Shown in pieces: positions 47,734 to 64,000 of a stretch of 64,000 nucleotides of DNA (position 1 is the stretch's first letter; each line of letters starts with the position of its first letter). Source of the stretch: Burkholderiales bacterium PBB6. GTDB taxonomy: Bacteria; Pseudomonadota; Gammaproteobacteria; Burkholderiales; Burkholderiaceae_C. The stretch covers positions 62,001 through 126,000 of the forward strand of contig NKIH01000002.1 in the NCBI GenBank assembly GCA_002255925.1, written 5' to 3'. Below the pieces are notes generated by a model. That model did no database searches and was not told the DNA's origin. It saw nothing but the letters and a program-made list of their open reading frames with translations. Position numbers and translations under genes: made by a program.

Positions 47734-48321
47734 TCACAGGGCTTCGGCCAGGCCGGTGGTGCCCACCAGGCGTTCAGCCGCATTCGGCAGTTGCAGGGCG
47801 CCAGCTTGGCGGCCCTTGCCAGCGCGTGCCGGCGGGTTGCACAGGCCGCACACGAAGTGGCGGGCCATTTCATGCGGGTGGGTCACGTAGTGGCCACTGC
47901 ACTTGGTGCACTTGGTCATGGTCAGCATGCCGTTGTCCACGAACTTCACCAGACGCCAGGCGCGGGTCACCGACAGCATCGGCTCCAGGCCCTGCTCAGC
48001 GGTCTGCTCCAGGTAGAGCTGGTAGGCCTTGATGACGGTGTCGATTTCCTCGAGCTCCGACGTCTTGTTCAGGTACTCGTGGATGTTCAGGAACAGGCTG
48101 GCATGGATGTTCGGCTGCCACGTCATGAACCAGTCGGTAGAGAACGGCAGCTGGCCTTTGGAGGGGCTGCGGCCGGAGACTTCCTTGTACAGGCGCAGCA
48201 GGCGCTCATACGACAGATCGGTCTCCGATTCCAGCACTTGCAAGCGGGCGCCCAGCTGAATCAGCGTCACGGCGCGTTCGATCTGGCGGGCTTCGGTCAG
48301 GATGCTCTTGGTGCGGGCCAT
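47734..48321 (-). CDS. flhC: Flagellar master regulator subunit FlhC
   Basis: A 195-residue FlhC. The zinc cysteines C138, C141, C158 and C161 match E. coli C137, C140, C157 and C160 with a one-residue offset. The N-terminal half has RAVTLIQLGARLQVLESETDL. With FlhD it forms the FlhD4C2 activator of flagellar class II genes. A GGAG site precedes the start. It follows flhD by 63 bases. Confidence 0.95.
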   Translation of the reverse strand: MARTKSILTEARQIERAVTLIQLGARLQVLESETDLSYERLLRLYKEVSGRSPSKGQLPFSTDWFMTWQPNIHASLFLNIHEYLNKTSELEEIDTVIKAYQLYLEQTAEQGLEPMLSVTRAWRLVKFVDNGMLTMTKCTKCSGHYVTHPHEMARHFVCGLCNPPARAGKGRQAGALQLPNAAERLVGTTGLAEAL

Positions 48322-48384
48322 GGTGTTCTCTCCGTCCTGTTTCTATGTGTGGTGGCTGGTGTCTGAAGCGGTCTGACCGGCGGG

Positions 48385-48708
48385 TCAGGCGGCTTCTTGA
48401 TGGCGGCCGGCCATCAGGATGGAAGCGTGCAGTCGCGAGACGCTGTCGTTGGCCGAGGACTTGCCGTGGCTGGTCAGCAGGCCCCAGACCAGGTCGTCGT
48501 CCATGCGGAAGCGGCAGAGCAGGGTATTGCCGGTGGCGATCTTCATCATCTGCGCCGGGGTCAGCGTGTTCAGCAGGTTCGCGGTTTCTTCCGAGACGCC
48601 CAGGCGGAACAGGGCTTGTTCGCGGTCAACGCGGATGAGGCTCTGGGCCAGCATCAGGTAGGAGAGGTTGGCTTCGCGGATCTCGGCGAGGATTTGGGTG
48701 GTTTCCAT
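48385..48708 (-). CDS. flhD: Flagellar master regulator subunit FlhD
   Basis: A 107-residue FlhD, slightly shorter than the 119 of E. coli. It keeps the helices around ILAEIREANLSYLMLAQSLI and C65, which in E. coli forms the inter-subunit disulphide. An AGGAG site lies before the ATG. It is the first gene of the flhDC operon. The 265-base upstream region contains repeated TGTCAG elements and separates it from the divergent glycan genes. Confidence 0.95.
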   Translation of the reverse strand: METTQILAEIREANLSYLMLAQSLIRVDREQALFRLGVSEETANLLNTLTPAQMMKIATGNTLLCRFRMDDDLVWGLLTSHGKSSANDSVSRLHASILMAGRHQEAA

Positions 48709-48857: not shown

Positions 48858-48973
48858 GCTGGTGTCATCGCTGCTTTACCGGGCGTCAGCAGGGCACTTG
48901 AGCGCCTGACAGTGCGAACAGGCAGGCCACGTGGCTGCTTTTCAGGGGTTGGGTGTGCGGCTGCTTTGCGACC

Positions 48974-50464
48974 ATGGCAAGACGCAAAAAAGCCCCGGCT
49001 GTACCCACAGCGCCCGACGCCGCCATGAACCTTCAAGACGCTCCCGTGCTGGACACCGCCCCCGACCTGACGCTGCTCTCCGAGCGCCTGGACGCGGTGG
49101 AAGCCTTTGGCGGCCAGATGAGCCAGGCCATTGAAAGCCTGGTGGACGCCGTGGTGGGTCTGCAAACCCAGGTGAACCCGGAAGACGAGACCGACGCCGC
49201 TGGCCTGGCCGCACTCACCGCCCGCGTCGCGGCGCTGGAGCAGCAAAGCCGACTGGCCGCCGCCTGCACTGATCTCGCCACCACCTCGCGCTTCCATCAA
49301 AAAACCCGCAGCGTGGTGTTCGTGGGCACCAGCTACTTCGGCTGCAACGTCAAATACGCCTGGCTGGCGTTCCGGGCCCAGGCCCGCGCCGCCGGCATCC
49401 AGACCTGGTTCCTGCCGCAAACCGCCCAGCAAGTTGAAGCGGTTACCGGCCTGGACGAAGCCTGCTTTCCGCTCAAGGCCTCTGACTGGGGGCCTGAGCA
49501 CATCACGGCGGCGCTGAGCGCGGCGGTGGTGGTGACCTGCGACCACCTGCTCAACCCAAACCCCTATGCCGCGTCGCTGCTGGCCGGCGCGCGCCATGTG
49601 CAGCTCTGGCACGGCATCTCCATCAAGGAGATCGGCCTGCGCAACCTGGCGCCGCTCAAAAACATGACGCCGCAGTTCGCCCGCGTGCTGGCCACCTGTG
49701 GCCCGTTCACCCGCATGGTGGGCACCTCGGGCAGCCAGGAGGGCGAGTTCCGCCGCTGGTTCGGCTTCGAGCGCTACGCGCCCATCGGCTACCCGCGCAA
49801 CGACGTGCTGCTGCGCGAGCCTGATGCCGCCGACTTGCTGAACGTGGACATGGTGGTGCTGGCAGAAGCCCGCGCCGCCCGCGCCGCCGGCCGCCGGGTG
49901 GTGCTGTATGCGCCCACCTTCCGCAATGCCAAGCGCGGCAGCTGGATCATCGAGGCCGGCCTGGAAACCCTGGCCGCGCAGTTGGCCCGCCGCGGTGACG
50001 TGCTCATCATCAACATGCACCCGGTGGAGTCGCCGATGATTCCGCAGCTGGTGCAGGCGCTGCCCACGGCACGTTTTGTCACGCCGCGCACAGACATTTA
50101 CCCGCTGTTGCGTGAAGCCAGCGTGCTGATCACCGATTACTCGTCGGTGATGTTCGACTACCTGCTGCTCGACCGGCCCGTTCTGCTGTTCCGACCCGAT
50201 CACCAGGACTACATCACCAAGTCGCGCCAGCTGTTCGACGACAAGCTCGAGGCCAAGCCGGGCCCGCTGGCCAGCGATGTGGCCGGCCTTTTGAGCCTGC
50301 TCAAGCCGTATGACGCGCACGGCCCCGAATTTGCCCCGAACCGGGCTGCGCTGCGCGGCCGGCTGTTTGACCACGTCGACGGCGGTGCCGGCGAACGCTT
50401 TGCCAGCCTGTTGCTGGAAGAGCTGGACCTGGCGCTGGACAGCGCCCAAGGAGAGTGCCCATGA
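48974..50464 (+). CDS. CDP-glycerol glycerophosphotransferase-like protein (TagF/TagB type)
   Basis: A 496-residue protein. Residues 1-95 are a helical, charged extension (LSERLDAVEAFGGQMSQAIE) likely to form a coiled coil. The catalytic part has LWHGISIKEIGLRN, INMHPVE and ITDYSSVMFDYLLLDRPVLLF, motifs of the Glyphos_transf family that moves glycerol phosphate or ribitol phosphate units from CDP-linked donors. Gram-negative homologues decorate surface glycans. ATG 48974 is preferred; ATG 49025 is possible. It overlaps the cytidylyltransferase start as ATGA. Confidence 0.85.
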   Translation: MARRKKAPAVPTAPDAAMNLQDAPVLDTAPDLTLLSERLDAVEAFGGQMSQAIESLVDAVVGLQTQVNPEDETDAAGLAALTARVAALEQQSRLAAACTDLATTSRFHQKTRSVVFVGTSYFGCNVKYAWLAFRAQARAAGIQTWFLPQTAQQVEAVTGLDEACFPLKASDWGPEHITAALSAAVVVTCDHLLNPNPYAASLLAGARHVQLWHGISIKEIGLRNLAPLKNMTPQFARVLATCGPFTRMVGTSGSQEGEFRRWFGFERYAPIGYPRNDVLLREPDAADLLNVDMVVLAEARAARAAGRRVVLYAPTFRNAKRGSWIIEAGLETLAAQLARRGDVLIINMHPVESPMIPQLVQALPTARFVTPRTDIYPLLREASVLITDYSSVMFDYLLLDRPVLLFRPDHQDYITKSRQLFDDKLEAKPGPLASDVAGLLSLLKPYDAHGPEFAPNRAALRGRLFDHVDGGAGERFASLLLEELDLALDSAQGECP

Positions 50465-50940
50465 ACTTGCCCCTGCCTGCCCACCTGCTCGCCCGTCCGG
50501 CCCTGGGTGCCGCGCCCCGCCTGCCCACCGAGCACCGCAGCGTGGCGCTGACCTACGGCACCTACGACCTGTTCCACATCGGCCATGTGCGCCTGTTCGA
50601 GCGCATCCGCCAGCGCTACGACCGGCTGATCGTGGCCGTCTCCACCGACGAGTTCAATGCCATCAAGGGCAAGCAGTCGGTGGTGCCATTTGAAGACCGC
50701 GTGGCGATGGTCAAGGCCTGCCGCTACGTCGACGAAGTCATCGCCGAAGAAGCCTGGAACCAGAAGCCCCGCGACATCCGCGCCTTCGGCGTGGACGCGC
50801 TGGTGATGGGCAGCGACTGGACCGACCGCTTCAACGAGTTCAAGACCCTGTGCGACGTGGTCTACCTGCCGCGCACGGAAGGGGTGTCCACCACCGAGCT
50901 GAAGGCTGACGTGCTGGCGCGCGTCCAGGCCTTGGGCTGA
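50461..50940 (+). CDS. Glycerol-3-phosphate cytidylyltransferase-like (TagD type)
   Basis: A 159-residue nucleotidyltransferase with TYGTYDLFHIGH (the HxGH-like site, here HIGH) and RTEGVSTTELK near the C-terminus, the TagD/GCT signature. TagD makes CDP-glycerol from CTP and glycerol-3-phosphate. It starts within the stop of the TagF-like gene, so the two form one unit that makes and transfers glycerophosphate. An N-terminal extension of about 25 residues precedes the domain. Confidence 0.88.
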   Translation: MNLPLPAHLLARPALGAAPRLPTEHRSVALTYGTYDLFHIGHVRLFERIRQRYDRLIVAVSTDEFNAIKGKQSVVPFEDRVAMVKACRYVDEVIAEEAWNQKPRDIRAFGVDALVMGSDWTDRFNEFKTLCDVVYLPRTEGVSTTELKADVLARVQALG

Positions 50941-51047: not shown

Positions 51048-52076
51048 ATGCTGAACGACAAATCCGTTTTGATCACCGGGGGCACCGGCTCCTTTGGCAA
51101 GGCTTTTGTCAAGACGGTGCTGGCCCGCTACCCGGGCGTCCGCCGCCTGGTGGTGTTCTCGCGGGACGAACTCAAGCAGTTCGAGATGCAGCAGCAGTTC
51201 CCCGAACAGCGCTACCGCGCGATGCGCTACTTCATCGGCGATGTGCGGGACGCTGACCGCCTGCGCCGCGCGATGGAAGGCATCGACATCGTCGTGCACG
51301 CCGCCGCCCTGAAGCAGGTGCCTGCCGCCGAGTACAACCCCTTCGAGTGCATCAAGACCAACGTGCTGGGTGCGCAGAACGTGATCGAGGCCTGCCTCGA
51401 CAGCCAGGTGCGCCGCGTGGTGGCCCTGTCCACCGACAAGGCCGCCGCGCCAGTCAACCTGTACGGCGCCACCAAGCTGTGCTCCGACAAGTTGTTCGTC
51501 GCCGCCAACAACATCCGCGGCACACGTGACCTGCGCCTGTCGGTGGTGCGCTACGGCAATGTCATGGGCAGCCGCGGCTCGGTGATTCCGTTTTTCCTGG
51601 AACGCCGCCCGGACGGCGTGCTGCCCATCACCGACCCCACGATGACCCGTTTCAACATCTCGCTGCAAGAAGGCGTGGACATGGTGCTGTGGGCACTGGG
51701 TCATGCCTGGGGTGGTGAGGTGCTGGTGCCGAAGATCCCGTCGTACCGCATCACCGACGTGGCCACCGCCATTGGCCCGGATTGCGAGCAGCGCATCGTC
51801 GGCGTGCGCCCCGGTGAAAAGATCCACGAGGAAATGATCACCGCCAGCGACAGCCTGAACACGGTGGACATCGGCCGCTACTACGCCATCCTGCCCACCG
51901 GTGGCTCTTTCAGCCGCGACGACTACCTGGCGCACTACAACGCCAAGCCGGTGCCCGTGGGCTTCACCTACGACAGCGGCTCGAACCCCGACTTCCTGGA
52001 CGTGCCGCAGCTGCGTGACCTGATCGAGACCCATGTGGACGGCATCTCGATGGTTGAGCGCCGCCGCCCGACCTGA
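51048..52076 (+). CDS. pseB: UDP-GlcNAc 4,6-dehydratase (inverting) PseB
   Basis: A 342-residue short-chain dehydrogenase-like enzyme, first step of pseudaminic acid synthesis. NAD-binding GGTGSFG at 11-17, RDELKQ at 40-45, STDKAA near 129 and the active-site Y139-x3-K143 in YGATK are present. It removes water from UDP-GlcNAc with C5 inversion. It heads the Pse operon behind the conserved leader element; pseC follows after 32 bases. Confidence 0.95.
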   Translation: MLNDKSVLITGGTGSFGKAFVKTVLARYPGVRRLVVFSRDELKQFEMQQQFPEQRYRAMRYFIGDVRDADRLRRAMEGIDIVVHAAALKQVPAAEYNPFECIKTNVLGAQNVIEACLDSQVRRVVALSTDKAAAPVNLYGATKLCSDKLFVAANNIRGTRDLRLSVVRYGNVMGSRGSVIPFFLERRPDGVLPITDPTMTRFNISLQEGVDMVLWALGHAWGGEVLVPKIPSYRITDVATAIGPDCEQRIVGVRPGEKIHEEMITASDSLNTVDIGRYYAILPTGGSFSRDDYLAHYNAKPVPVGFTYDSGSNPDFLDVPQLRDLIETHVDGISMVERRRPT

Positions 52077-52108: not shown

Positions 52109-53263
52109 GTGATTCCCTACAGCTGCCAGCAGATCACCGAAGACGACATTGCCGCCGTCACGGCGGTGCTGCGTTCTGAATATCTGACCCAGGGCCCTGT
52201 GCTGCCGGCCTTTGAAGCCGCCTTTGCCGCCCGCCACGGCGTGGCCCATGCGGTGGCGGTGAGCAATGCCACCGTCGGCTTGCACCTGGCCTGCCTGGCG
52301 CTGGGCGTAGGCCCGGGCAGTGTGGTGTGGACCTCGCCGAACAGCTTTGTGGCGTCAGCCAACTGCGCGCTGTATTGCGGCGCCGAGGTTGGCTTTGTGG
52401 ACATGGACCCCGCCACCCGCAACCTGAGCGTGGCGGCACTGCGTATCAAGCTGGCCAGCGCGCGTGCGCAAGGCTGCTTGCCCGATGTGTTGATTCCGGT
52501 GGACTTTGGTGGCCTGCCCGCAGAGCTGCGCGAGATGCGCGCCTTGGCGAACGAGTACGGCTTCAAGATTCTGGAAGACGCCTCGCACGCCACGGGTGCC
52601 AGCTACCTGGGCCAGCCTGTGGGCGCCGCCTGGGCGGATGCCACCGTGTTCAGCTTCCATGCCGTCAAGGTCATCACCACCGCCGAGGGCGGCATGGTGA
52701 CGACACAAGACCCCGCCCTGGCGCAGCGTCTGCAAGCCCTGCGCTCACACGGACTGACCCGCGACGCCGCGCAGATGCATCACGCGCCCGAAGGCCCGTG
52801 GGTCTATGAGCAGCACAGCCTGGGCTTCAATGCCCGGATGACCGAATTGCAGGCCGCGCTGGGCCACTCGCAGTTGGGACGCCTGGATGCGATGCAGGCG
52901 CGCCGCGCCGAGCTGGCCGCGCGTTACGGCCGCTTGCTGGCCGACTTGCCCCTGGGCCTGCCGGTGGAGCCCGAAGGCTGCCGCAGCGCCTGGCACCTGT
53001 ACCCGGTCACGCTGGAAGCCGGCACGGCGCCGCGCGCGCAGGTGTTCCAGGCGATGCGGGCCGCAGACATCGGCGTGAACGTGCACTACATCCCCATCCA
53101 CACCCAGCCGTTTTATGCGGCGCGGGGCTTTGCGCCGGGCGACTTCCCCGAGGCCGAGCGCTACTACGCGCGGGCCATTTCGCTGCCGCTGCACCCGTCG
53201 CTCACCGACGCACAGCAAGACCAGGTCGTGGCCGTGCTGCGCCAGGCGCTGTTCGCGGGCTGA
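52109..53263 (+). CDS. pseC: UDP-4-amino-4,6-dideoxy-altrosamine aminotransferase PseC
   Basis: A 384-residue DegT/DnrJ-type PLP aminotransferase. PLP-binding K187 lies in SFHAVKVITTAEGG and D157 in LEDASHATGA. Motifs PFEAAFAARHGV-like entry and ARMTELQAALG fit PseC. It converts the 4-keto product of PseB to the 4-amino sugar. The start is GTG at 52109, with no strong ribosome site. An 18-base gap leads to the GT80-like gene. Confidence 0.93.
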   Translation: MIPYSCQQITEDDIAAVTAVLRSEYLTQGPVLPAFEAAFAARHGVAHAVAVSNATVGLHLACLALGVGPGSVVWTSPNSFVASANCALYCGAEVGFVDMDPATRNLSVAALRIKLASARAQGCLPDVLIPVDFGGLPAELREMRALANEYGFKILEDASHATGASYLGQPVGAAWADATVFSFHAVKVITTAEGGMVTTQDPALAQRLQALRSHGLTRDAAQMHHAPEGPWVYEQHSLGFNARMTELQAALGHSQLGRLDAMQARRAELAARYGRLLADLPLGLPVEPEGCRSAWHLYPVTLEAGTAPRAQVFQAMRAADIGVNVHYIPIHTQPFYAARGFAPGDFPEAERYYARAISLPLHPSLTDAQQDQVVAVLRQALFAG

Positions 53264-53281: not shown

Positions 53282-54430
53282 ATGCCTGCCCGGCTGCTCA
53301 AGCTCTACATCGATTCCACGTCGCTGCCGCTGGTGCACCAGATGGCGGACTTCGTGCGCTGCGCTGACGACCCGGGCATCACCAAGCTCATCACCTGGCT
53401 GCGCCTGCCCCTGAGCGAAGCGCAGCTGGCTGGCACCGGCGCGCTGTACCTGCCGCAGATGGCGGCCATCAGCTCGGCCTTCGTGGGCCAGGTGTGCAAC
53501 CTGGTCAAGCAGGGCCACCGCGACATCGAGATTCACTCCAACCAATTCCACGCCTGGCGCGGTGTGGCGCCGCTGCTGCAGGCGCTGGCCCCGGTGCTGC
53601 GCAGTGGCGCTGTGCGGGTGCGCCTGCACTTGTATGACGACGGCTCGGTGGGGCCGCTGCAACGCGACGAGCTGGCCCGCTGGCCTGACCTGTCGAGCGC
53701 GCTGGCCGTGGCCGCGCGTGAGCTGGAAGCCCATCTCTTCAGCCGCCAGCCCCTGAGCTGGACGCTGCCCCACAGCCACGCGTGGCCGCTGGTGCTGCCC
53801 ACCACCTTCCACTGGCTGCACCCCAAGGCGCTGCTGCGCACGCCCGAGGGCGCAGCGCTGTGCGCGCTGCTGGACCAGCACATTCAACCGATGGTGTTTG
53901 ATGGCCTGCCCGACCTGACCCAGGCGCAGAGCGACCATTACCTCGCGCTGTTTGGCCTGACCCCGGAGGTGGCTGACACCCTGGTGCCGCTGGCCGGCGC
54001 CGCAGATGCCGTGCTGTTCACCGGCACCGGCGCCTGGGACAAGGCCTGGAACCTGCGCCTGCGCGACAGCCAGCTGCGTGCCATCGCCACGCTGCACCAG
54101 CACCACTGCTTCGACGGCCTGCGGGCGATTGGCTACAAGGGCCACCCGGCCAACTGCGACCACGATGCGGCCATTCAGGCGGCACTTGGCGACGATGTGA
54201 TCGCCTTGCCGCAGCGGGTGCCGCTGGAGGTGCTGCTGATGGCCGGCCTGTTGCCGCAGCGCGTGGCCGGCGTGTTGAGCACTTTTCACCTGACGATGCC
54301 GGCTGCCATGATCGACGCCGTGCTGTGCCAGGCCGGCCCGCCTCCCGGGGGCACCAGCGCCCCGCTGGTGCAGTGGCTCATCGACAACCAACTGGTGGCG
54401 CCCGAGCAGATGCTGGCGCTGCTGGACTGA
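53282..54430 (+). CDS. GT80-family glycosyltransferase (sialyltransferase-like)
   Basis: A 382-residue protein that aligns by eye with the GT80 sialyltransferase PmST1 of Pasteurella along its whole length. It starts LLKLYIDSTSLPLVHQMADF, as PmST1 starts with LYLDPASLPALNQLMDF. Functional blocks are YDDGS at 118-122 (the general-base Asp region), GTGAW near 248, YKGHP with H288, PLEVLLMAGLLP with E316 and VLSTFHL with S333-T334 (CMP-phosphate binding in PmST1). GT80 enzymes use CMP-activated nine-carbon acids. Embedded between pseC and pseF, it probably uses CMP-pseudaminic acid; no Maf-type transferase is in the window. Identity of acceptor is unknown. Confidence 0.82.
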   Translation: MPARLLKLYIDSTSLPLVHQMADFVRCADDPGITKLITWLRLPLSEAQLAGTGALYLPQMAAISSAFVGQVCNLVKQGHRDIEIHSNQFHAWRGVAPLLQALAPVLRSGAVRVRLHLYDDGSVGPLQRDELARWPDLSSALAVAARELEAHLFSRQPLSWTLPHSHAWPLVLPTTFHWLHPKALLRTPEGAALCALLDQHIQPMVFDGLPDLTQAQSDHYLALFGLTPEVADTLVPLAGAADAVLFTGTGAWDKAWNLRLRDSQLRAIATLHQHHCFDGLRAIGYKGHPANCDHDAAIQAALGDDVIALPQRVPLEVLLMAGLLPQRVAGVLSTFHLTMPAAMIDAVLCQAGPPPGGTSAPLVQWLIDNQLVAPEQMLALLD

Positions 54431-54451: not shown

Positions 54452-55507
54452 ATGCCTGCCTACAACGATTTGCGCGCCGTGTGCGCGGCCATGCACCAGG
54501 CGCCTGAGCTGTACCGGCCGGCGGTGTTCTGGGATGCAGCCTCGGCCACCATCGTGACCGAGCTGGAGACCGAAGGCATCGAACGCTTCCGCAGCTTGTC
54601 GACGCCGCTGAGCTACTTCGTGCCGACCTGGGGCGTGCCCGTCAGCGGTTTCACGGCCGAGCAGGTGCAGGCCCTGACCGACGGCCTGCAAGGCGACTTC
54701 CCCAATGCCAAGAAGGCCCATCTGGCGCTGGCGCAGTTTTTGTCGGGCGAGATGGCGGCCCAGGCCGACTACCGCGTGCTCAAGGCCGCGGACGACCCCA
54801 CGCGCCTGCCGCACCTGCACACCTTCACCGAAAGCGAGGTGGGCACGCCGGTGGGCCAGATGAGCTTCGAGGGCCGGCGCTTCAGCCGCTCGTCGATGAA
54901 CTACCTGCTGGGCATGGCCCTGTTGAAAAAGCACCTCGGCGCTGAGCTGCCCCGCGTGGTGCTGGAAGTGGGCGGCGGTTTCGGCACGCTGGGTGAGTTG
55001 CTGGCGGCGAGCGGCATGCCGGGCTGGCAATACATCGATGTCGACATTCCGCCGACCAGCTTCGTGGCCGAGTGGTATTTGCGCCAGGTGCTGGGTGAGG
55101 CCAACGTCACCGGCTGGGCGCAGACCCATGCGGAAAGCGCGTTGCCAGTGAGCAGCCTGCCGCAGGCCGCGGTGCTGGCGGCCTGGCAGATCGAGCAGCT
55201 GCAAGGCCAGGTCGATCTGTTCGTCAACTTCATTTCCTTCCAGGAAATGGAGCCGCACATCGTGCGCAACTACCTGGCCCAGGCCGAGCGCCTGCAGGCT
55301 CGCTGGGTGCTGCTGCGCAACCTGCGTGAAGGCAAGCCCAAGCGCGTGCCCGGCCAGCAGCACGGCGTGGATACCCCGGTGCTCGGCGATGACTACATCA
55401 CCATGCTGCCCGGCTATGAGTTGATCGAGCGCAGCACGCTGCCCTTCGGCTACAAGACGGTCGACGGCTTCCACTCGGAAATGCTGCTGCTCAAGCGGCG
55501 CGACTAG
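54452..55507 (+). CDS. Putative sugar O-methyltransferase (TIGR04371-like)
   Basis: A 351-residue protein with a SAM-binding motif VVLEVGGGFGTLGELL near residue 170, FNYLLGMALLKKHL-type lead-in (NYLLGMALLKKHLG) and YIDVDIPPTSFVAEWYLRQV, as in putative sugar O-methyltransferases of glycan clusters. N-terminal 130 residues are of unclear function. It lies 21 bases after the GT80-like gene and could modify pseudaminic acid or the acceptor glycan. The substrate is unknown. Confidence 0.75.
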   Translation: MPAYNDLRAVCAAMHQAPELYRPAVFWDAASATIVTELETEGIERFRSLSTPLSYFVPTWGVPVSGFTAEQVQALTDGLQGDFPNAKKAHLALAQFLSGEMAAQADYRVLKAADDPTRLPHLHTFTESEVGTPVGQMSFEGRRFSRSSMNYLLGMALLKKHLGAELPRVVLEVGGGFGTLGELLAASGMPGWQYIDVDIPPTSFVAEWYLRQVLGEANVTGWAQTHAESALPVSSLPQAAVLAAWQIEQLQGQVDLFVNFISFQEMEPHIVRNYLAQAERLQARWVLLRNLREGKPKRVPGQQHGVDTPVLGDDYITMLPGYELIERSTLPFGYKTVDGFHSEMLLLKRRD

Positions 55508-55663: not shown

Positions 55664-56368
55664 ATGAAGATCGCGCTCATTCCCGCGCGTGGCGGCAGCA
55701 AGCGCATTCCGCGCAAGAACATCCTGCCGTTCTGCGGCCGGCCTATGCTGGCCTGGGTGGTGGACGCTGCCCAGCGCAGCGGCTGCTTCGACCGCATCGT
55801 GGTGTCCACCGACGACCCCGAAGTGGCCGAGCTGGCCGTGCGCTGCGGCGCCGAGGTGCCGTTCATCCGGCCTGCCAGCCTGGCCGATGACCACACCGGC
55901 GTGATCGCGGTCATCCGCCATGCCGTGAACATCTTGCTGCCACAGCCCGGCCCGGACGATTGGGTGTGCAACCTGCTGGCCACGGCGGCCTTCCTGCATC
56001 CGGCTGATTTGCAGGCCGCATGGGCGCAGCTTGGCCAGCGGCCCGAGGCTGATTTCGCCTTGTCGGTGGCGGCCTTCCGCGCTCCCATCCAGCGCGCGCT
56101 GCGGCTCGATGCCGAGCAGCGGGTGTCGATGTTCGACCCCGAGCAATTTCCCAAGCGCTCGCAAGACCTGGAGCCGGCCTTCCATGACGCCGGCCAGTTT
56201 TGCTGGGGCCGTGCGCAGGCCTGGCTGACGGTGAGCAATGTATTCACGCCTGCCTGCCTGGCCGTGCGCCTGCCCGACCACCGCGTGCAAGACATCGACA
56301 CGCCCGAAGACTGGGTGCGTGCCGAGTGGCTCTTCAAGGCGATGCAGGCAGCCGGGGAGGGCGCATGA
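55664..56368 (+). CDS. pseF: Pseudaminic acid cytidylyltransferase PseF
   Basis: A 234-residue CMP-sugar synthetase. The N-terminal IALIPARGGSKRIPRKN is the CTP-binding loop of the CMP-NeuAc synthetase family; VVSTDDPEVAELA and the later VQDIDTPEDW fit PseF. It activates pseudaminic acid to CMP-Pse, the donor for a transferase. It overlaps pseG as ATGA. Confidence 0.94.
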   Translation: MKIALIPARGGSKRIPRKNILPFCGRPMLAWVVDAAQRSGCFDRIVVSTDDPEVAELAVRCGAEVPFIRPASLADDHTGVIAVIRHAVNILLPQPGPDDWVCNLLATAAFLHPADLQAAWAQLGQRPEADFALSVAAFRAPIQRALRLDAEQRVSMFDPEQFPKRSQDLEPAFHDAGQFCWGRAQAWLTVSNVFTPACLAVRLPDHRVQDIDTPEDWVRAEWLFKAMQAAGEGA

Positions 56369-57459
56369 GCCTGGGCACTGCCCACACACCGCTGCCGAAC
56401 ACCGCGCCGGTGCTGCTCATCCGCGCCGATGCGTCGCAGCAGATGGGCTCGGGCCATGTGATGCGCTGCCTGGCGCTGGCCGAAGCCTGGGCGGCACGCG
56501 GGCACGCGGTGCACTTCATCTGCCGGCCCTTGCTCGGGAATTTGACGGGCGAGTTGCAGCAGCGCGGCTGGCCGGTGCACAGCCTGCCCCTGCCTGAGCT
56601 TGAGCCCACCTGGAGCGTGGCCGACCAGGACGCCGATGCAGCAGCCACCGCAGCCTTCGTTGCCCAACTCGCGAGCGCATCACACGCCAGCTGGCTGCTG
56701 GTCGACCACTACCAACTGGATGCCCGCTGGCACGCCCGCGTGGCACAACCCGGCCTGCACATCGCGGTGCTCGATGACCTGGCCAACCGCCCGCTGCAGG
56801 CCGATGTGCTGATCGACCAGAACGCGCTGCCCCACCTGCATCATCGCTACCCGGCGCTCACCCCGCCGCACTGCGTGCACCTGCTCGGCGCCGGCTACAC
56901 GCTGCTGCGCCGGGACGTTCAGGCTGCCGCCCACCGGCGTGCCACCGGCACCACGAGCACCGTGCCCATCTTTCTGGGCGGGGCCGATACCGAGCGCTGG
57001 ACCGAAGCCGTGCTGGCCCAGTGGGTGCGGCAACCGGCCCGCGCTGACCTGCATGCCCATGTGCTGTGCGGCGCGATGAACCCGCATTGGCGCGACGTGG
57101 CGGCGGCCTGCGAGGCGGCACACGTCGAGTTTTCAATGGCGGTGCGCGGCCTCGATGACGTGATGGCGGGGTCGCGGGCCGCCATCGTCGCCTGCGGCAT
57201 GCTGGCCGTGGAGCTGCAGGCGCTGGAGGTGCCAAGCCTGTTGGTGCCACTCTCCAGCATCCAGCGTGCGGTGGCCCATGACTTTGCGCAACGCGGCCGC
57301 GCCGTGGTGCTGGAAACATCGGGGCTGCAACAGCCCCACACCTTTGACCAAGCCTGGGCCGCCACCCTGGCCCTGAACCACCACAGCACCGGCCGCGCCT
57401 TCATGGCGCTGGACGGCGCGCAGCGGGTGGTGGACACACTTCTGGAGATCGCCGCATGA
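56365..57459 (+). CDS. pseG: UDP-2,4-diacetamido-trideoxy-altropyranose hydrolase PseG
   Basis: A 364-residue GT-B-like hydrolase. The N-terminal SQQMGSGHVMRCLALAEAW holds H31, equivalent to the catalytic His of Campylobacter PseG; VDHYQLDARW and GGADTERW follow. It removes UDP from the diacetamido sugar. ATG 56365 overlaps pseF by 4 bases; the open frame extends upstream antisense but that part is not real. It overlaps the next gene also by 4 bases. Confidence 0.92.
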   Translation: MSLGTAHTPLPNTAPVLLIRADASQQMGSGHVMRCLALAEAWAARGHAVHFICRPLLGNLTGELQQRGWPVHSLPLPELEPTWSVADQDADAAATAAFVAQLASASHASWLLVDHYQLDARWHARVAQPGLHIAVLDDLANRPLQADVLIDQNALPHLHHRYPALTPPHCVHLLGAGYTLLRRDVQAAAHRRATGTTSTVPIFLGGADTERWTEAVLAQWVRQPARADLHAHVLCGAMNPHWRDVAAACEAAHVEFSMAVRGLDDVMAGSRAAIVACGMLAVELQALEVPSLLVPLSSIQRAVAHDFAQRGRAVVLETSGLQQPHTFDQAWAATLALNHHSTGRAFMALDGAQRVVDTLLEIAA

Positions 57460-58121
57460 GCACCGCGTTGAATGAGCCGTCGAACCAGACCTTGATCGAA
57501 CACTACCGCTCGCTGCTGAACAGCCATGGCGATACCTTCGAGGCCGCGCAGTATTCATCCCGCGCCTCGCAGGAAGCCCGCTACGACATCCTCGTGCAGG
57601 TGGCCGATCTGCAAGGCGCCCGGGTGATGGACTTCGGCTGCGGCACCGGTCACCTCGCCACCTACCTGAAAGAGCGGGGGGTCGACTGCCAGTACACCGG
57701 CATCGACATCGTCGAAGACTTCTTCCCCTATGCCCGCGCCAAGCACCCGGACCACCGTTTCGGCCGCTGGGAAGACTTCGAGGGCGAGCGCTTCGACTAC
57801 ATCTTCGTCAGCGGCGTCTTCAACAACCGCATGCCCGACAACGAGGCGTTTTTCACCAACACCGTGAAGCGGCTGTTCGAGCGTTGCGACGGCGCCTTGA
57901 GCTTCAATGCCATGAGCACCTGGGTGGATTTCCAGGACCCCGGCCTCTGGTACATCGCCCCTGAAAAGGTGTTTGCGTTTTTGAAGACGCTGACGCCCTA
58001 CATCACGCTGCGCAACGACTACGTGGTCAAGCGCATGCCCGTGCCGTTCGAGTTCGCCGCCTACGCCTACCGGGCGCCCCTGGTGGCTGGCCCGGAGGAG
58101 ACCGAGGAGCCCGCAGCATGA
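57456..58121 (+). CDS. Class I SAM methyltransferase
   Basis: A 221-residue methyltransferase with VMDFGCGTGHLATYL (SAM motif I) near residue 58 and GIDIVEDFF. FDYIFVSGVFNNR is motif post-II. The N-terminus EHYRSLLNSHGDTFEAAQ is found in small glycan-cluster methyltransferases. It overlaps pseG and the FAD gene by 4 bases each, so it is translated in one chain with pseF-pseG-pseI. Substrate unknown; a Pse derivative is likely. Confidence 0.78.
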   Translation: MSTALNEPSNQTLIEHYRSLLNSHGDTFEAAQYSSRASQEARYDILVQVADLQGARVMDFGCGTGHLATYLKERGVDCQYTGIDIVEDFFPYARAKHPDHRFGRWEDFEGERFDYIFVSGVFNNRMPDNEAFFTNTVKRLFERCDGALSFNAMSTWVDFQDPGLWYIAPEKVFAFLKTLTPYITLRNDYVVKRMPVPFEFAAYAYRAPLVAGPEETEEPAA

Positions 58122-59365
58122 ACATCGCCGTGGTGGGAGGGGGCTTCAGCGGCGCGATGACGGCGCTGGCACTGGCACGCCAGGGCCACGGCGTGACGAT
58201 TTATGAAGCCGGCACCGAGCTGGGCGGCATCGTGCGCGACGTGCACCTGCCGCACGGCCGCTTCCTGCGTGGCTGCCACTACATGAACCTGGCGCCGAGT
58301 TTCCAGGCCCTGTGGCCGCACATCGACGACCTGGCGCTGACCCGCTTTGACCACCACTACGGCTCCTGGAACAACCTGTTCGGCCCGGTGATGGTGCACC
58401 ATGATTTTGCGCAGCCCGTGGTGCCCGGCCCGCTGGGTGACGGTGCCGCCACCGGTGACACCACCGCCCTGTGGGCCGGCTCGGTGGCCGACTACCTCGC
58501 CCTGCACGAACCCCGCGTGGGCCGCGTGCTCACCACCTGGGCCGAGCGCGTGGGCGACGTGAACAGCCTGGCGGCCATCAACGCCATTCCGCTGCAACTC
58601 AGCCGCGTTTTTTACCCCGACGACCTGGCGGCCGTGCGCGCCGCCAAGCAGGCTGATGCGCTGCTCGACAGCACCCTGGGTGTGCCCCGCAGCCTGTTCG
58701 AGCCACCCTTGCCGGTGCAGGGCGGCGCCTTGCCCACCCACGGCTTTGATGACTACATGCGCTGTCTGCAAGCCACGCTCGATCGCCTCGGTGTGCGCAC
58801 CGTGCTGAACGCGCCGGTGAAGCCTGTGCGGCAGGCCGATGACCGCTGCGGCCTGAGCCTGCGCGGTGAGGCGGTGGCGGCCGATTGGGTGGTGTGGTGC
58901 GCCAACCCCACGCCACTGCTGCAGGTGCTGACTGGCGACCGGCTGGAATCTCCCGCCACCCGCTGCGTGTACCTGTACGCCACGGTGGACGGCGCCTTGC
59001 CCGAGCAGCCGCTGTACTACCAGGCCTTTGGCCATGACCACCCGGTGATGCGCCTGTTCAGCTACGAGCTGGACGGCCGCAAGCTGACCATCGAAGCGCT
59101 GGACGAGGGCTGGACACCGGCGCAACTGGTGGCCGTCACCGAACAGATCCTGCGTGACCTCGGCTGGCCCGTGCGCATCACCCATGCTGAAGTGCAGCCC
59201 GAGAAGCGCTATGCGCTGGTCTCGCAGCACGACCTGACCTGCATGACCCGCTTCGCCCGCAAGGCCGCCAAGCTGGGTGTGGTGACGGGCGGCTGGCAGC
59301 ACTACGGCCGCGACCGCCGCTTCGGCGACATCCTCGACCAGCTGACCCAGGTGGGGGTGTTGTGA
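58118..59365 (+). CDS. FAD-dependent oxidoreductase of the UGM/amine-oxidase-like class
   Basis: A 415-residue flavoprotein with an N-terminal Rossmann dinucleotide motif IAVVGGGFSGAMTALALARQG and YEAGTELGGIV, followed by RFLRGCHYMNL (resembling UDP-galactopyranose mutase or NAD(P)-binding amine-oxidase-like enzymes). The middle has LFEPPLPVQGGALPTHGFDD. Related proteins occur in glycan clusters, but the reaction is unknown: ring contraction, oxidation or isomerisation of a sugar are possible. It overlaps its neighbours by 4 bases at both ends. Confidence 0.65.
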   Translation: MNIAVVGGGFSGAMTALALARQGHGVTIYEAGTELGGIVRDVHLPHGRFLRGCHYMNLAPSFQALWPHIDDLALTRFDHHYGSWNNLFGPVMVHHDFAQPVVPGPLGDGAATGDTTALWAGSVADYLALHEPRVGRVLTTWAERVGDVNSLAAINAIPLQLSRVFYPDDLAAVRAAKQADALLDSTLGVPRSLFEPPLPVQGGALPTHGFDDYMRCLQATLDRLGVRTVLNAPVKPVRQADDRCGLSLRGEAVAADWVVWCANPTPLLQVLTGDRLESPATRCVYLYATVDGALPEQPLYYQAFGHDHPVMRLFSYELDGRKLTIEALDEGWTPAQLVAVTEQILRDLGWPVRITHAEVQPEKRYALVSQHDLTCMTRFARKAAKLGVVTGGWQHYGRDRRFGDILDQLTQVGVL

Positions 59366-60063
59366 GCACCTGCGTCGTGATGCAGCCCACCTACCTGCCG
59401 TGGTCGGGCTACTTCAACCTGATGGCGCAGGCCGATGTGTTCGTGCTGCTGGACGACGTGCAGTACAACCGCACCAGTTGGCAGACGCGCAACCGCATCC
59501 TCGTGCAGGGTGAAGAGCAACTGCTGACCGTGCCCGTGCTGGCCGGTCATCTGGATACCCGCATCGAGGCCGTGCGGCTGGCGCCTGGCCCGTGGCCGCG
59601 CAAGCACCTGGCCTCGCTGACGGCGGCTTATGCCAAGGCGCCGCATGGGCCTGAACTGCTGGCGCTGCTGGCGCCGCTGTACGAAACCGCTGGCGAAGTG
59701 ACGCACCTGGTCGACTGGAACCAGCAGCTTATCAGCACCCTTGCCACCGCGCTGGGCCTGCACACGCCGCTGGTGCGCGCCTCCACGCTGGGCTGCGGCG
59801 GCGAGCGTTCGGCCCATGTGCTGGCCCTCTGCGATGCGCTGGGCTGTGACGACTACCTCTCGCCCGTGGGCTCGGCCGACTACCTGGCGGAGGACAACTT
59901 TGCCGCCAACGGGCGGGTGTCGCTGCGCTTTCAGGCCTACCGGCCCGCGCCCTACGCGCAGCGCAAGGCACCGGCCTTCGTGTCTCACCTGTCGGTGGTC
60001 GATGTGATCGCCCACCAGGGCCTTGAATTTGCCCGGCATTACGTGAAAGAGTCAGCGCCATGA
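59362..60063 (+). CDS. WbqC family protein
   Basis: A 233-residue member of the WbqC family, found in O-antigen and flagellar glycan loci. It starts VVMQPTYLPWSGYFNLMAQ, has DDVQYNRTSWQTRNRI and SPVGSADYLAEDNF, the family hallmarks. The biochemical role of the family is not settled. The GTG at 59362 overlaps the upstream stop. Its coupling with pseI suggests a function in the same pathway, perhaps an unidentified step such as acyl transfer. Confidence 0.85.
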   Translation: MSTCVVMQPTYLPWSGYFNLMAQADVFVLLDDVQYNRTSWQTRNRILVQGEEQLLTVPVLAGHLDTRIEAVRLAPGPWPRKHLASLTAAYAKAPHGPELLALLAPLYETAGEVTHLVDWNQQLISTLATALGLHTPLVRASTLGCGGERSAHVLALCDALGCDDYLSPVGSADYLAEDNFAANGRVSLRFQAYRPAPYAQRKAPAFVSHLSVVDVIAHQGLEFARHYVKESAP

Positions 60064-61121
60064 ACACCGCCAACCCGAGCATCACCATCCAGGGCCGCCA
60101 CATCGGCCTGGACCACCCGCCCTACGTGATCGCGGAGATGTCGGCCAACCACAACGGCAGCCTGGAGCGCGCCTTCAGCATCCTGGCCGAGGCCAAGGCG
60201 GCGGGCGCAGACGCGGTGAAGATCCAGTCGTACACCGCCGACACCATCACGCTGGACTGCGACAACGAAGACTTCATGATCCGCGGCGGTTTGTGGGACG
60301 GCCGCCGCCTGCATGAGCTCTACCGCGAAGCCGAAATGCCCTGGGCCTGGCACCGCCCGCTGTTCGAGCGCGCCCGCGAACTGGGCCTGACGATCTTCAG
60401 CTCACCGTTCGACCATTCGGCGGTGGACCTGCTGGCCTCGCTCGACGCGCCGGCCTACAAGATCGCCTCGTTTGAGGCCATCGACATTCCGCTGATCCAG
60501 TACGTGGCGTCGGTGGGCAAGCCGATGATCATTTCCACCGGCATGGCCAGCCAGCAGGAAATCGACGAGGCGGTGGACGCCGCCCTCGGTGCCGGCTGCA
60601 CGCAGCTGGCGGTGCTGCGCTGCGTGAGCGGCTACCCCGCACCGGCGGCCGATTACGACCTGCGCACGATTCTGGACATGCGCGAGCGCTACGGCCTGGT
60701 CACCGGCCTGTCTGACCACACGCTCGACAACACCACGGCGATTGCCAGCGTGGCGCTCGGGGCTTCGATCATCGAAAAGCACTTCACGCTCGACCGCCAG
60801 GGTGGTGGGCCGGACGACACCTTCTCGCTCGAGCCGCCTGAGCTCGCCGCCTTGTGCAGCAGCGCCCGCGTGGCCTGGAGCGCACTGGGCCAGGTGCGTT
60901 ACGGCCCGGCGCCGAGTGAGCGCAGCAACGTGAAGTTCCGGCGCTCGATCTATTTCGTCAAAGACCTGGCCGAGGGCGAGCTCATCACCCCCGATGCGAT
61001 CCGCGTGGTGCGCCCGGGCTTCGGCGCCTTGCCCAAGCATTTCAACGCCATGATCGGCCGCCGCGTGGCGCGTGCCGTGGCCCGCAACACGCCGGCGGCG
61101 CTGGAACTGCTGGCGCCTTGA
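60060..61121 (+). CDS. pseI: Pseudaminic acid synthase PseI
   Basis: A 353-residue NeuB-type synthase that condenses 2,4-diacetamido-2,4,6-trideoxy-L-altrose with phosphoenolpyruvate. VIAEMSANHNGSLERA and KIQSYTADTITLD are the N-terminal active-site motifs; ISTGMASQQEIDEAV, CVSGYPAP and LSDHTLDNTTAI follow, and a C-terminal SAF domain (SIYFVKDLAEGELITPD) ends the protein. It overlaps wbqC by 4 bases and is the last gene of the cluster before convergent glycosyltransferase genes. Confidence 0.95.
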   Translation: MNTANPSITIQGRHIGLDHPPYVIAEMSANHNGSLERAFSILAEAKAAGADAVKIQSYTADTITLDCDNEDFMIRGGLWDGRRLHELYREAEMPWAWHRPLFERARELGLTIFSSPFDHSAVDLLASLDAPAYKIASFEAIDIPLIQYVASVGKPMIISTGMASQQEIDEAVDAALGAGCTQLAVLRCVSGYPAPAADYDLRTILDMRERYGLVTGLSDHTLDNTTAIASVALGASIIEKHFTLDRQGGGPDDTFSLEPPELAALCSSARVAWSALGQVRYGPAPSERSNVKFRRSIYFVKDLAEGELITPDAIRVVRPGFGALPKHFNAMIGRRVARAVARNTPAALELLAP

Positions 61122-61240: not shown

Positions 61241-63148
61241 CTACCTTGATGCCAGCAACGCCGTCGGTGCCTCACCCGCCTGCTCGCGCTCGAACATGCG
61301 CACCAGCATCGCTTCAAAGTCGCGGGTGTAGCGGGCCGAGTCGAACAGCGGCAGCTCCAGGCGGTGCTGCTCCAGGTACTCGCTCAGGCCGCTGAGTGTC
61401 TCTGGCTCGTTCGCCAGCGCGGTGGCCAGGGCCACGTAGCTGTCTTCATCGCCCGCCGCCAGGTCAGGCAAGCCGCAGGCCGTGACCAGGCTGGCCGCCA
61501 CGCGGGAGGCGTAGGTGGCGCCCGGCACGGTGAGCACCGGCACGCCGGCCCACAGGGCCTCGCTGGCGGTGGTGTGGGCGTTGCAGGGCCAGGTGTCGAG
61601 GAACAGATCGGCCTGGCGCAGCCGGGCGATGTGGTCGTTCATCTGCTTGGTGCCGGCCCAGAAGATGCGCTCGGGTGGCACGCCACGGGCGACCAGCTCG
61701 CGGTTCAGGTTGGCCTTGGCGGTGGGGTTCCAGGCCAGCAGCCACAGCACGGCGGTGGGCGCGCCGGCCATCACGCGGGCCCACAGGTCCAGCATGTGCG
61801 GCGAGATCTTGTAGGTCTGGTTGAAGCAGCACAGCACCACCGCGTCTTCGGGCAGGCCGAGTGATGCGCGGCTGGGCGCCGGGGGCAGGGCCCGGTGGCG
61901 GTCATTCGGCTGGTAGCTGTGTGGCATCTGGGCGATGCACTCGGTGTAGTGGCCGGCGTGCTCGATGGGGGTGACCACCGGGTCGCCGACGATGTAGTCG
62001 AGGAAGTCAGCGCCGCTGGTGGCCGGGTAGCCCAGAAACGCCACCTGCACCGGGGCCGGTCGGAAGGCCAGCAGATCGAAGCGGCTGTTGCGGGTGTGGC
62101 CCTTGAGGTCGACGGCGATGTCGATGTCGAGTTCGCGCATGCGCCGGGCAATGGCTTCGCTCGTCAGGTGCGTCACGTCGTGGAACTGCTCGCAGGCGGC
62201 GCGCACACGGGTGCCGGTGGCCGAGCTGTCGTCGCCGTTGTGGGAGAAGAGATGCACCTCGAAGCGGCTGGTGTCGCGCTGTTCCAGCATCTGGGTCATC
62301 AGCACAGCGGTGGCGTGGTGGTGGAAGTCGCCTGACAGGTAAGCCACGCGGATCGGGCCGGGCTGGCGCGCGCCGCGCTTGTCGAAGGGCTTGATGTGGC
62401 GGGTGAGCTGGCGCGTGCGCAGCTCGCCAATCCGGCGCTGTTGGGCCGGCGAGGCGTCCACCGCCAGCAGGGCGAAGGGCGAGAGCTGCTCGCCGGTGCT
62501 GGTGTCGGCGCTGTCGAGCGCGGCCAGCAGTTGCACCGTGTCGTCCTCGATCTGGCTCCATTCGCAGCACTGGCGGCCTTCATGCACCAGCAGCGACAGC
62601 GCCAGCGCGCGCACCGAGCCGGTGTCCAGCAGCGATGCAGTGCGGAAGCACTCCACCGACTCCTTGGCCATGTTCATGTCCTTGAAGATCAGGCCGAGGC
62701 GGTAATGCACCATCGGCGCGTCCATCTTGATGGACAGCGCGGCGAAGCTGGCCTGGATGGCGTCATTGAAGCGCTTGCACTGGAACAGCGCGGTGGCGTG
62801 CAGGTCATGCCAGGCGAAATCCCGCGGGGCTTCGGCGTCCTGCTCGTCCAGCACCTGGGCGGCTTCGGCATGCCGGTTCATCTTCATCAGGCATTCGGCC
62901 AGCAGGCGCCGCGCCATGTCGTCTTTCGGGGCCATGCGCACGGCGCGCTGGGCGTGGTCGATGGCCCGCTCGGGGTAGCCGGCCTTGGCCAGCGCACCAG
63001 CCAGCTGCAGCCACAGCCGCGGGTTGCCGGGGTGCAGGCTGGCGGCTTGCTCAAACTCGGTGCAGGCCTGCAGCCAGTGGCGGGCCTGCAGGGCCTTCTT
63101 GCCGGCTTGCAGGTGGCGCTCGGCGCGCTGGAGGGTGGCATTGCTCAT
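61241..63148 (-). CDS. TPR-GT41 glycosyltransferase (SPINDLY/OGT-like)
   Basis: A 635-residue cytoplasmic protein. The N-terminal 200 residues are TPR helices (AERHLQAGKKALQARHWLQA, RAIDHAQRAVRMAPKD). The C-terminal half is a GT41 catalytic domain: SGDFHHHATAVLM with the likely catalytic His, FRPAPVQVAFLGYPATSG, CFNQTYKISPHMLDLWARV with the conserved Lys and SEALWAGVPVLTVPG. GT41 enzymes in bacteria glycosylate proteins; flagellin is a good candidate here. It overlaps the upstream GT2 gene as ATGA. Confidence 0.88.
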   Translation of the reverse strand: MSNATLQRAERHLQAGKKALQARHWLQACTEFEQAASLHPGNPRLWLQLAGALAKAGYPERAIDHAQRAVRMAPKDDMARRLLAECLMKMNRHAEAAQVLDEQDAEAPRDFAWHDLHATALFQCKRFNDAIQASFAALSIKMDAPMVHYRLGLIFKDMNMAKESVECFRTASLLDTGSVRALALSLLVHEGRQCCEWSQIEDDTVQLLAALDSADTSTGEQLSPFALLAVDASPAQQRRIGELRTRQLTRHIKPFDKRGARQPGPIRVAYLSGDFHHHATAVLMTQMLEQRDTSRFEVHLFSHNGDDSSATGTRVRAACEQFHDVTHLTSEAIARRMRELDIDIAVDLKGHTRNSRFDLLAFRPAPVQVAFLGYPATSGADFLDYIVGDPVVTPIEHAGHYTECIAQMPHSYQPNDRHRALPPAPSRASLGLPEDAVVLCCFNQTYKISPHMLDLWARVMAGAPTAVLWLLAWNPTAKANLNRELVARGVPPERIFWAGTKQMNDHIARLRQADLFLDTWPCNAHTTASEALWAGVPVLTVPGATYASRVAASLVTACGLPDLAAGDEDSYVALATALANEPETLSGLSEYLEQHRLELPLFDSARYTRDFEAMLVRMFEREQAGEAPTALLASR

Positions 63149-64000
63149 GGCGTGGGGCTCAGTTCAGGGTGCGCCGGGGCGCTGTCATTCAGGCAGGCGC
63201 TCAGCAGCGCCAGGTTTTGTTCGGCGAGGTGGCTGCCGCGGCCGGCCACGGCGCCTTCCAGTTCAGGCCGCTCGCCGATCAGCAGGCAGCGCTGCCAGGC
63301 TTCTTCGATCATCGGCAGCAGATCAGTAGCACGGGCGGGCTCGTCAGCGGCCCAGTCCAGCAGCAGGTCGCCCAGGGCGAAGAAAAAGTCGGGCGACTGG
63401 GACCAGCGCTGCAGCTGCCGCTCGGCGCGGCACAGGCCTTCTGCATGGCGGCCGCAGCGCTTGAGCGCATGCAGGCTGCGCACGTCCAGGTCATGCAGCC
63501 AGGCGGGCAGGGCGGCGGTCGGGGCGTCCGGGTCGGGGTCGAGCAGGGCTTCGGCGCGGCGGAAGCAGTGCAGGGCGTCGGTGTAGCGCTCGTACACGTC
63601 GTGGTCCTTGCCAAGCTGGTACCAGAGGTAGGCGTCGTGCGGATCGTCCTTCAGCGCGGCCTGCAGCAGCGCGGTGTTGCGGCCGGCCTTGGCCTGCAGC
63701 GCCTGCTGGCGGTAGCCCTCGTGGCTGATGCGCACCGGCAGCCGCACCACGGGCAGCTGGTGCTGCGGTTGTTCATGCACCCGGCCGGCATAGCGCACGT
63801 GGCCGGGCAGCACCCGGCTGATCCAGCTGGGTGAGGTGGCCACCGCGCCGCCCTGGTCGTAGCTGCTGTCCACCCGCACGCAGCCGACGTGGTCGGGGGC
63901 GGTGTGGCGCAGCGCGGCAATGGCGGGGCCGCCGTCGGTCAGGCGCTCGTCGGCGTCCAGCACCAGGTGCCAGTCGGCGCCGGCCAGCGCCAGGGCGGCA
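63145..64000 (-). CDS. GT2-type glycosyltransferase with TPR tail (partial)
   Basis: The window edge cuts the 5-prime end. The visible part begins in the GT2 fold just before DWHLVLDADERL, where the DxD-like metal site lies, and continues to VRISHEGYR. A helical C-terminus with TPR-like repeats (AYLWYQLGKDHDVYERYTDA) follows, ending TP. It is the first visible gene of the minus-strand pair with the GT41 protein, overlapping it by 4 bases. The GTG at 63963 is not its start. Confidence 0.8.
   Translation of the reverse strand, partial: AALALAGADWHLVLDADERLTDGGPAIAALRHTAPDHVGCVRVDSSYDQGGAVATSPSWISRVLPGHVRYAGRVHEQPQHQLPVVRLPVRISHEGYRQQALQAKAGRNTALLQAALKDDPHDAYLWYQLGKDHDVYERYTDALHCFRRAEALLDPDPDAPTAALPAWLHDLDVRSLHALKRCGRHAEGLCRAERQLQRWSQSPDFFFALGDLLLDWAADEPARATDLLPMIEEAWQRCLLIGERPELEGAVAGRGSHLAEQNLALLSACLNDSAPAHPELSPTP

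Follow-up and report, generated by a model that had tools for sequence, protein, structure and literature searches.

A glycosyltransferase gene of family GT80, with its catalytic positions kept, is present in a pseudaminic acid (Pse) operon inside a flagellar locus of Burkholderiales bacterium PBB6. The window analysed here is a stretch of 64,000 nucleotides of contig NKIH01000002.1. Judged from its sequence and its neighbours, this GT80 is the best candidate for the Pse transferase of this genome. It probably transfers Pse, or a derivative of Pse, from the predicted donor CMP-Pse onto the predicted acceptor, the flagellin glycan. The genes of the cassette and those that flank it are listed in Table 1.

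Table 1. Genes in and around the Pse cassette of the window, with the matches on which they are named
Gene	Position	Strand	Basis and remarks
flhC + flhD-like gene	47734..48708	-	FlhC PF05280 E 4.7e-85; left edge of slot
PF04464 glycerophosphotransferase-like gene	48953..50464	+	PF04464 E 1.7e-45
TagD-like cytidylyltransferase	50455..50940	+	PF01467 E 2.6e-24; TIGR01518 138 bits, below cut-off 165.4
pseB	51048..52076	+	TIGR03589 515.4 bits, cut-off 407.75
pseC	52109..53263	+	TIGR03588 506.7 bits, cut-off 423.5
GT80 (PF11477) glycosyltransferase, candidate CMP-pseudaminate transferase	53282..54430	+	382 aa, ATG start
putative sugar O-methyltransferase	54452..55507	+	TIGR04371 E 1.2e-74, 251.3 bits, cut-off 44
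pseF, CMP-pseudaminate synthetase	55664..56368	+	TIGR03584 297.2 bits, cut-off 205.7
pseG	56365..57459	+	TIGR03590 208.4 bits, cut-off 153.55
SAM methyltransferase-like gene	57456..58121	+	PF08242 E 1.4e-10
FAD/NAD(P)-binding oxidoreductase-like gene	58118..59365	+	PF01266 E 2.3e-11, PF13450 E 1.5e-10
WbqC-like gene	59362..60063	+	PF08889 E 3.5e-61
pseI	60060..61121	+	TIGR03586 479.7 bits, cut-off 340.25
TPR + GT41 protein	61241..63148	-	PF13844 E 1.8e-85 plus TPR
GT2 protein	63145..64000, runs 230 bases past window	-	PF00535 E 6.2e-15 (whole protein)

The GT80 protein

The initial annotation of this DNA had likened the protein to GT80 block by block, and all five blocks were found, with YDDGS at residue 118, GTGAW at 248, KGHP at 286, PLEVLLMAGLLP at 314 and VLSTFHL at 331. 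The Pfam profile search agrees with this assignment, PF11477 spanning residues 6–348 at 97.5 bits, well above the cut-off of 25 (E 1.1e-27). It is the sole Pfam match of the ORF up to E 1, no TPR family being among them, and there are zero NCBIfam matches up to E 0.1. The best solved chain in the PDB sequence search is PM0188 (PmST1), at E 3.7e-21. Fifteen of the 16 PDB sequences up to E 10 are named sialyltransferase or PM0188 (E 3.7e-21 to 1e-14), and the other is an antibody chain (E 1.1). A chance or mis-framed ORF is ruled out by the PF11477 and PDB chain matches, which are far beyond chance. Because homology to the solved chains covers residues 5–348, a GT-B fold is implied. A structure model from a three-row alignment (the window protein with L019 and L020) had an AlphaFold mean pLDDT of 46.6 and a pTM of 0.45, and its pocket is uninterpretable.

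The likeness to PmST1 and to other GT80 sialyltransferases lies in the Pfam family and in the CMP-binding and catalytic positions; the window protein and the PmST1 stretch share about 23% identity. The Asp and His catalytic positions have not been lost, D141 of PmST1 aligning with D120 and H311 with H288. In the same alignment W270 corresponds to W252, K309 to K286, E338 to E316 and S355 to S333, and S356 is replaced by T334. We take D141, in the YDDGS block, to be the general-base Asp of PmST1, and E338 and W270 to be the ribose Glu and the acceptor-side Trp. The CMP phosphate is presumably held by the His of KGHP (H311) and the Ser pair (S355/S356). The Ser-Thr that replaces the Ser-Ser pair is found in the window GT80 and in that of genome G1330. 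The Trp equivalent to W270 is present, among the 10 other aligned proteins, only in the two Pasteurellaceae rows, L019 and L020.

At the sugar-side positions P34, N85, M144 and R313 of PmST1, the window GT80 has S, S, V and A. The changes at N85, M144 and R313 weigh little, since these positions vary among the Pasteurellaceae rows as well. At the P34 position there is S in the window and in G1319, P in L019, L020, four rows from legionaminic-type loci and the G1494 fusion protein, F in G1330 and G in G1397. Of the sugar-side positions compared, only this one follows the genomic partner, with G1330 (F) departing.

The Pse cassette and the flagellar slot

PseB, PseC, PseF, PseG and PseI, five of five, score above the NCBIfam equivalog cut-offs. 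The GT80 gene is 18 bases from pseC upstream and 21 bases from the O-methyltransferase gene downstream. It had been placed between pseC and pseF in the initial annotation; pseC is directly upstream, as described, and pseF is the second gene downstream, the O-methyltransferase gene (TIGR04371) being the first. From pseF to pseI each gene overlaps the next by 4 bases if the pseG start is taken to be the ATG at 56365, a longer mechanical ORF beginning at 56200. On the 5' side of the cassette the PF04464 gene overlaps the TagD-like gene, which would function in CDP-glycerol synthesis. The GC content of the GT80 gene (0.696; GC3 0.898) is similar to that of the neighbouring genes, and base composition gives no sign of its recent import.

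Among the 12 cassette genes, no PseH N-acetyltransferase was recognised with Pfam and NCBIfam profiles. The WbqC-like protein may stand in for PseH, perhaps as an N-acyltransferase. A WbqC-like gene is also present, together with an aminotransferase like PseC, in the flagellar cassettes of two genus-mates (L044 8200-8844 and L098 6017-6649). No flippase or polymerase was found among the same 12 genes.

The flhD-like gene is named by its position beside flhC, not by profile. Beyond the GT2 gene, outside the window, are three flagellin ORFs, of which the first is about 0.5 kb past the window edge and was checked against Pfam (PF00669 E 9.3e-45, first ORF only). Because these flagellin genes sit just past the window, the flagellar setting is stronger than the window alone shows.

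All 14 genus-mates with an flhC match were compared by searching the cassette-facing side of flhDC with the window proteins. GT80 and PseF are present in none of these 14 stretches beside flhDC. GT41 is present in 10, and four of those 10 genomes (G619, G621, G622 and G076) have no PseI-profile match. The stretches without GT41 are L044 and L045, seen over the full 20 kb, and L100 and L099, where 2.8 and 6.8 kb of contig remain past flhD. The full frame of flhDC, other genes, GT41, GT2, three fliC and fliD is visible in six of the 14; L047 has GT41, and the 6.8 kb that remain of it showed neither GT2 nor fliC. GT41 is a general component of this slot and the cassette varies, therefore GT41 is not Pse-specific.

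From flhD to GT41, L041-L051 and L098 form an exchangeable slot in which the glycan and methyltransferase genes differ between genomes. Relatives of the PF04464 protein adjoin flhD in genus-mates G617 and G626. PF04464 and/or TagD-like genes are seen in flagellar loci at 48953-50940 of the window, L049 1667-4813, L100 1137-2450 and L065 11485-11952, a recurrence that suggests glycerol phosphate on flagella. In two genus-mates the slot contains a distant PseI-like gene (L041 8799-12132 and L051 11577-12452). The one in L041 is beside an ORF that resembles a TPP enzyme by eye, a pairing like that of Shewanella sfmA/sfmB. In Clostridium, similar flagellar hypervariable regions are described, and GT2-TPR proteins are proposed as flagellin glycosyltransferases, in the available text of one report (PMC13317340).

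GT80 relatives and their genomic partners

GT80 is rare: samples of 250 genomes from the family, 369 from the class and 399 from the order, which overlap, each contained one genome with a GT80, that of PBB6 itself. In the phylum sample it was found in 4 of 398, three of them above the cut-off, and 7 of 295 members of the family of G1319 have a match. Of 313 stretches matched by a two-pattern contig scan, two encode a GT80 relative, and both of these are from Pasteurellaceae. Searches of plasmids, phages and viral contigs with the window GT80 protein found nothing at E 1e-3, and a DNA search of E. coli genomes with the GT80 of G1628 found no match. A GT80-like protein annotated as hypothetical (WP_017817635.1) is encoded at L097 11899-13113, on the Vibrio harveyi conjugative plasmid pvh5 (NZ_CP150472.1). 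It is 27% identical to the GT80 of L020 (Bisgaard Taxon 45), and no NulO gene is named among the 31 annotated features shown around it.

The initial annotation had proposed a survey for GT80 genes beside pse genes. The shared cassette of the window is one such case and the only one seen, G1319 keeping the two apart. The gene for its 388-aa GT80 lies about 6 kb away from flgA, beyond which are flgE and flgI. PseB, C, F, G and I, all above cut-off, are encoded elsewhere in that genome than the GT80, in a locus that is O-antigen-like by eye and that has a PF05159 gene of its own nearby; PF05159 we take to be the family of KpsS. The other PF02348 matches of G1319 are KdsB and a GlmU-like ORF below cut-off. 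In the GT80 of G1319, W270, G310 and S355 of PmST1 are replaced by F, A and T.

A second group, in G1628, G1449, G1557 and G1551, consists of 560-aa proteins that begin with a GT80 part and are encoded among legionaminic-type genes. In G1628 the LegC, NeuC, NeuB and NeuD models are above cut-off, and the PseF model falls slightly short of its own (195.9 vs 205.7 bits). The legionaminic type of the other three was assigned from like ORFs, apart from two profile-scanned G1551 proteins, the remainder of the G1551 set being on a separate contig. A divergent flagellin gene adjoins the GT80 gene in G1628, G1557 and G1551; the G1449 contig ends there. The best model for the G1628 flagellin is lateral flagellin LafA, below cut-off. 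All four of these genomes have a Maf-family gene, which in G1551, G1628 and G1557 is on the same contig as the GT80 gene and about 20 kb from it. Because they carry Maf, the GT80 in these genomes may not prime flagellin and may add a second sugar.

GT80-GT9 fusions of about 700 aa are encoded near flagellar genes in G1494 (L065 8268-10403) and G1397 (L066 8758-10827), genomes in which KdsB is the only PF02348 (CTP_transf_3) member. The G1494 fusion keeps DDG and KGHP and has lost the Ser pair; in the G1397 fusion both DDG and HP are gone. The ORF that follows GT80 in each of the two Pasteurellaceae loci resembles a CMP-nonulosonate synthetase. Up to E 1e-20, the only NCBIfam match of these ORFs is PseF, far short of its cut-off at 138 and 134.6 bits, and we read them as probable NeuA. 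A similar synthetase-like protein is encoded in G1330 (134 bits). The motifs are kept, with small changes, in those GT80 rows whose genomes encode a nonulosonate synthetase, and are altered in the two rows whose genomes do not, although the numbers are small.

The window GT80 and that of G1319 are 26% identical and have no supported grouping in a tree of 12 rows. Since both are long branches at an open fork, no common descent is claimed for the Pse-linked GT80s. Other Pse clusters are near transferases of other families, a PF07388 polysialyltransferase-like protein in G625 (L016 10212-11240) and the PF05159 Capsule_synth protein of G1319 (L095 14356-15822).

Donor, acceptor and comparison with known systems

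Which donor is available to this enzyme? The PBB6 genome is 99.98% complete and has one GT80, one PseI-profile match and two PF02348 members, kdsB (TIGR00466 280.4 bits, cut-off 155.2) and pseF. As these are the only members, a CMP-Neu5Ac or CMP-Leg synthetase is judged absent, and CMP-Kdo and CMP-Pse are therefore the sole predicted home-made donors of the CMP-sugar class. A NeuA-type synthetase, expected with a GT80 sialyltransferase in the strict sense, is not among the PF02348 members of this genome, and for this reason a sialyltransferase with home-made CMP-Neu5Ac was rejected. The Pse operon and the flagellar setting also set it apart from GT80 sialyltransferases. There are zero PF01973 matches in the whole genome, which extends the observation in the initial annotation that no Maf-type flagellin transferase is seen; the PF01973 profile does detect bacterial members in other genomes. 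The domain pfam01973 is named Maf_flag10 (PMC11339370, in the text available).

GT80 enzymes are inverting, and the mechanism of PmST1 is of this kind. In the sequence of events that we propose, PseB, C, G, I and F, with WbqC putatively in place of PseH, would produce CMP-Pse. The TPR-GT41 and GT2 neighbours probably start the flagellin glycan, and GT80 would add Pse to that sugar. D120 would activate the acceptor hydroxyl for its attack on CMP-Pse, with H288 and S333/T334 holding the phosphate. CMP would be released with inversion, and Pse would be added in the cytoplasm before flagellin is exported. GT80 would thus fill the role that Maf plays elsewhere, and the O-methyltransferase may decorate the Pse-bearing glycan. 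The linkage and the order of these steps are our predictions from the gene content. A sugar on flagellin is the likeliest acceptor because GT80s use sugar acceptors, the cassette has no flippase or polymerase, and the slot is flagellar. Direct transfer of Pse to Ser/Thr is a less likely form.

Could the acceptor be LPS or another surface glycan, rather than flagellin? The sugar acceptors of GT80 enzymes (PMC10795189) would suit this, as would the Aeromonas caviae model, in which Lst puts Pse on LPS and Maf serves flagellin (PMC3426422; partial texts in both cases). We consider it unlikely, if deserving of some weight, since the cassette is inside a flagellar locus, at the place where six of the 14 genus-mates visibly hold other genes between flhDC and GT41-GT2-fliC. 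The donor might instead be CMP-Kdo, with Kdo added to a flagellar or surface glycan. KdsB is encoded in the genome, and KdsB is the sole PF02348 member in the genomes of the two GT80-GT9 fusions encoded near flagellar genes. The initial annotation had stated that some relatives use CMP-Kdo; the available text of PMC12887879 bears this out for other families only, the (K/R)XHP motif being common to GT80 and the Kdo families GT99 and GT107. That the GT80 gene is within a Pse operon, and that both KdsB-only genomes (G1494 and G1397) have altered GT80 motifs, make a Kdo donor quite improbable. We know of no GT80 with Kdo activity.

Other proteins of the slot might attach Pse, leaving GT80 a side role. 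The TPR-GT41 protein could transfer Pse to flagellin as the Caulobacter TPR protein FlmG does. FlmG (TPR + GT-B) sufficed to glycosylate flagellin in E. coli that makes Pse, and its host is without Maf, according to the available text of PMC7591256; the window protein likewise combines TPR with a GT domain and is encoded near fliC. This is rather improbable given the distribution of GT41, present in 10 of 14 genus-mate stretches and in four of those 10 genomes without a PseI-profile match, and given that the Pse cassette has a GT80 of its own. We regard it as highly improbable that the PF04464 protein is the Pse transferase and GT80 secondary. Such a role would recall Tannerella forsythia, in which Pse and Leg transferases are backed by knock-out (PMC6388019, in part) and are described as TagB-domain proteins (PMC7439481, in part). 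The PF04464 gene, however, overlaps the TagD-like gene, and the slot of G617 has relatives of both (61% for PF04464 and 74% for TagD) with no pse genes there, PseI being elsewhere in that genome. A 63% relative is also found beside flhD in G626, a genome that is 80% complete and has no PseI-profile match.

Transfer of Pse from CMP-Pse by the GT80 remains our preferred reading, and it can be set beside several known systems. Maf flagellin transferases have the job proposed here, that of putting NulO onto flagellin, and differ in belonging to PF01973. FlmG is like the proposed enzyme in transferring Pse independently of Maf, and its TPR + GT architecture resembles the window GT41 protein (PMC7591256, text available in part); unlike FlmG, the window GT80 matches no TPR family, and the window GT41 is not tied to Pse. 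Acinetobacter KpsS1 (GT118) also uses a Pse donor but is a retaining enzyme of another family (PMC12887879, in part). T. forsythia GtfS is a transferase for a Pse derivative with D/E-D/E-G and HP motifs; it differs in being a TagB-domain protein of S-layer glycosylation (PMC6388019, in part).

The closest parallel in gene setting is in Enterobacterales. PM0188-type genes are reported in variable region 1 of the flag-2 locus in 35 Citrobacter strains (PMC6993521, in the text available). As in the window, GT80 is there part of a flagellar locus whose glycan genes are exchangeable, and TagB and TagD are reported as well (PMC6993521). That paper takes the family name to suggest neuraminic acid, and the word pseudaminic does not occur in it; in contrast, the partners of GT80 in the genomes described here are legionaminic-type genes and, in the window, Pse genes. 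As legionaminic-type genes adjoin GT80 in the examined genomes, Leg-type sugars are favoured for these genomes. Transfer of Pse by promiscuous sialyltransferases is reported in the title of Flack et al. 2020 (cited in PMC9875253), so that use of Pse by a sialyltransferase-type enzyme has a precedent, one that by its title is biocatalytic and in vitro. Given this title and the Citrobacter genes, GT80 action on CMP-Pse, called an unusual donor specificity in the initial annotation, appears less so. In the open-licence PMC literature searched, as far as its text was available, no description of a natural GT80 pseudaminyltransferase was found.

To our knowledge, few enzymes that attach Pse are known. 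A paper of 2023 reportedly concerns, by its title, the reprogramming of a flagellin sialyltransferase. Information on legionaminyltransferases is called very limited in the available text of PMC11356810, which describes use of CMP-Leg by PmST1 and, less efficiently, by a Photobacterium enzyme, both of them GT80 (PMC10795189, in part). The stereochemistry of Pse is inverted at C5, C7 and C8. Gonococcal Lst accepted CMP-Leg and not CMP-Pse, and did not incorporate Pse (PMC4668040, in the text available).

A wider reading is possible, somewhat short of probable. GT80 may be a family of nonulosonic-acid transferases in which the natural donor tracks the genomic partner: a Neu5Ac-type sugar in Pasteurellaceae, a Leg-type sugar in the lateral-flagella loci of enteric bacteria, and Pse in the window and G1319. 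The GT80s of flagellar loci might then be a second, Maf-independent route, and the window GT80 would naturally take the opposite stereochemistry of Pse. If the window protein is a natural CMP-Pse GT80, it would allow the residues that set donor choice to be mapped one by one in a fold that has been studied well, and would offer a possible tool to make Pse glycans. It would also be a candidate answer to how Pse is delivered on flagella that are without Maf.
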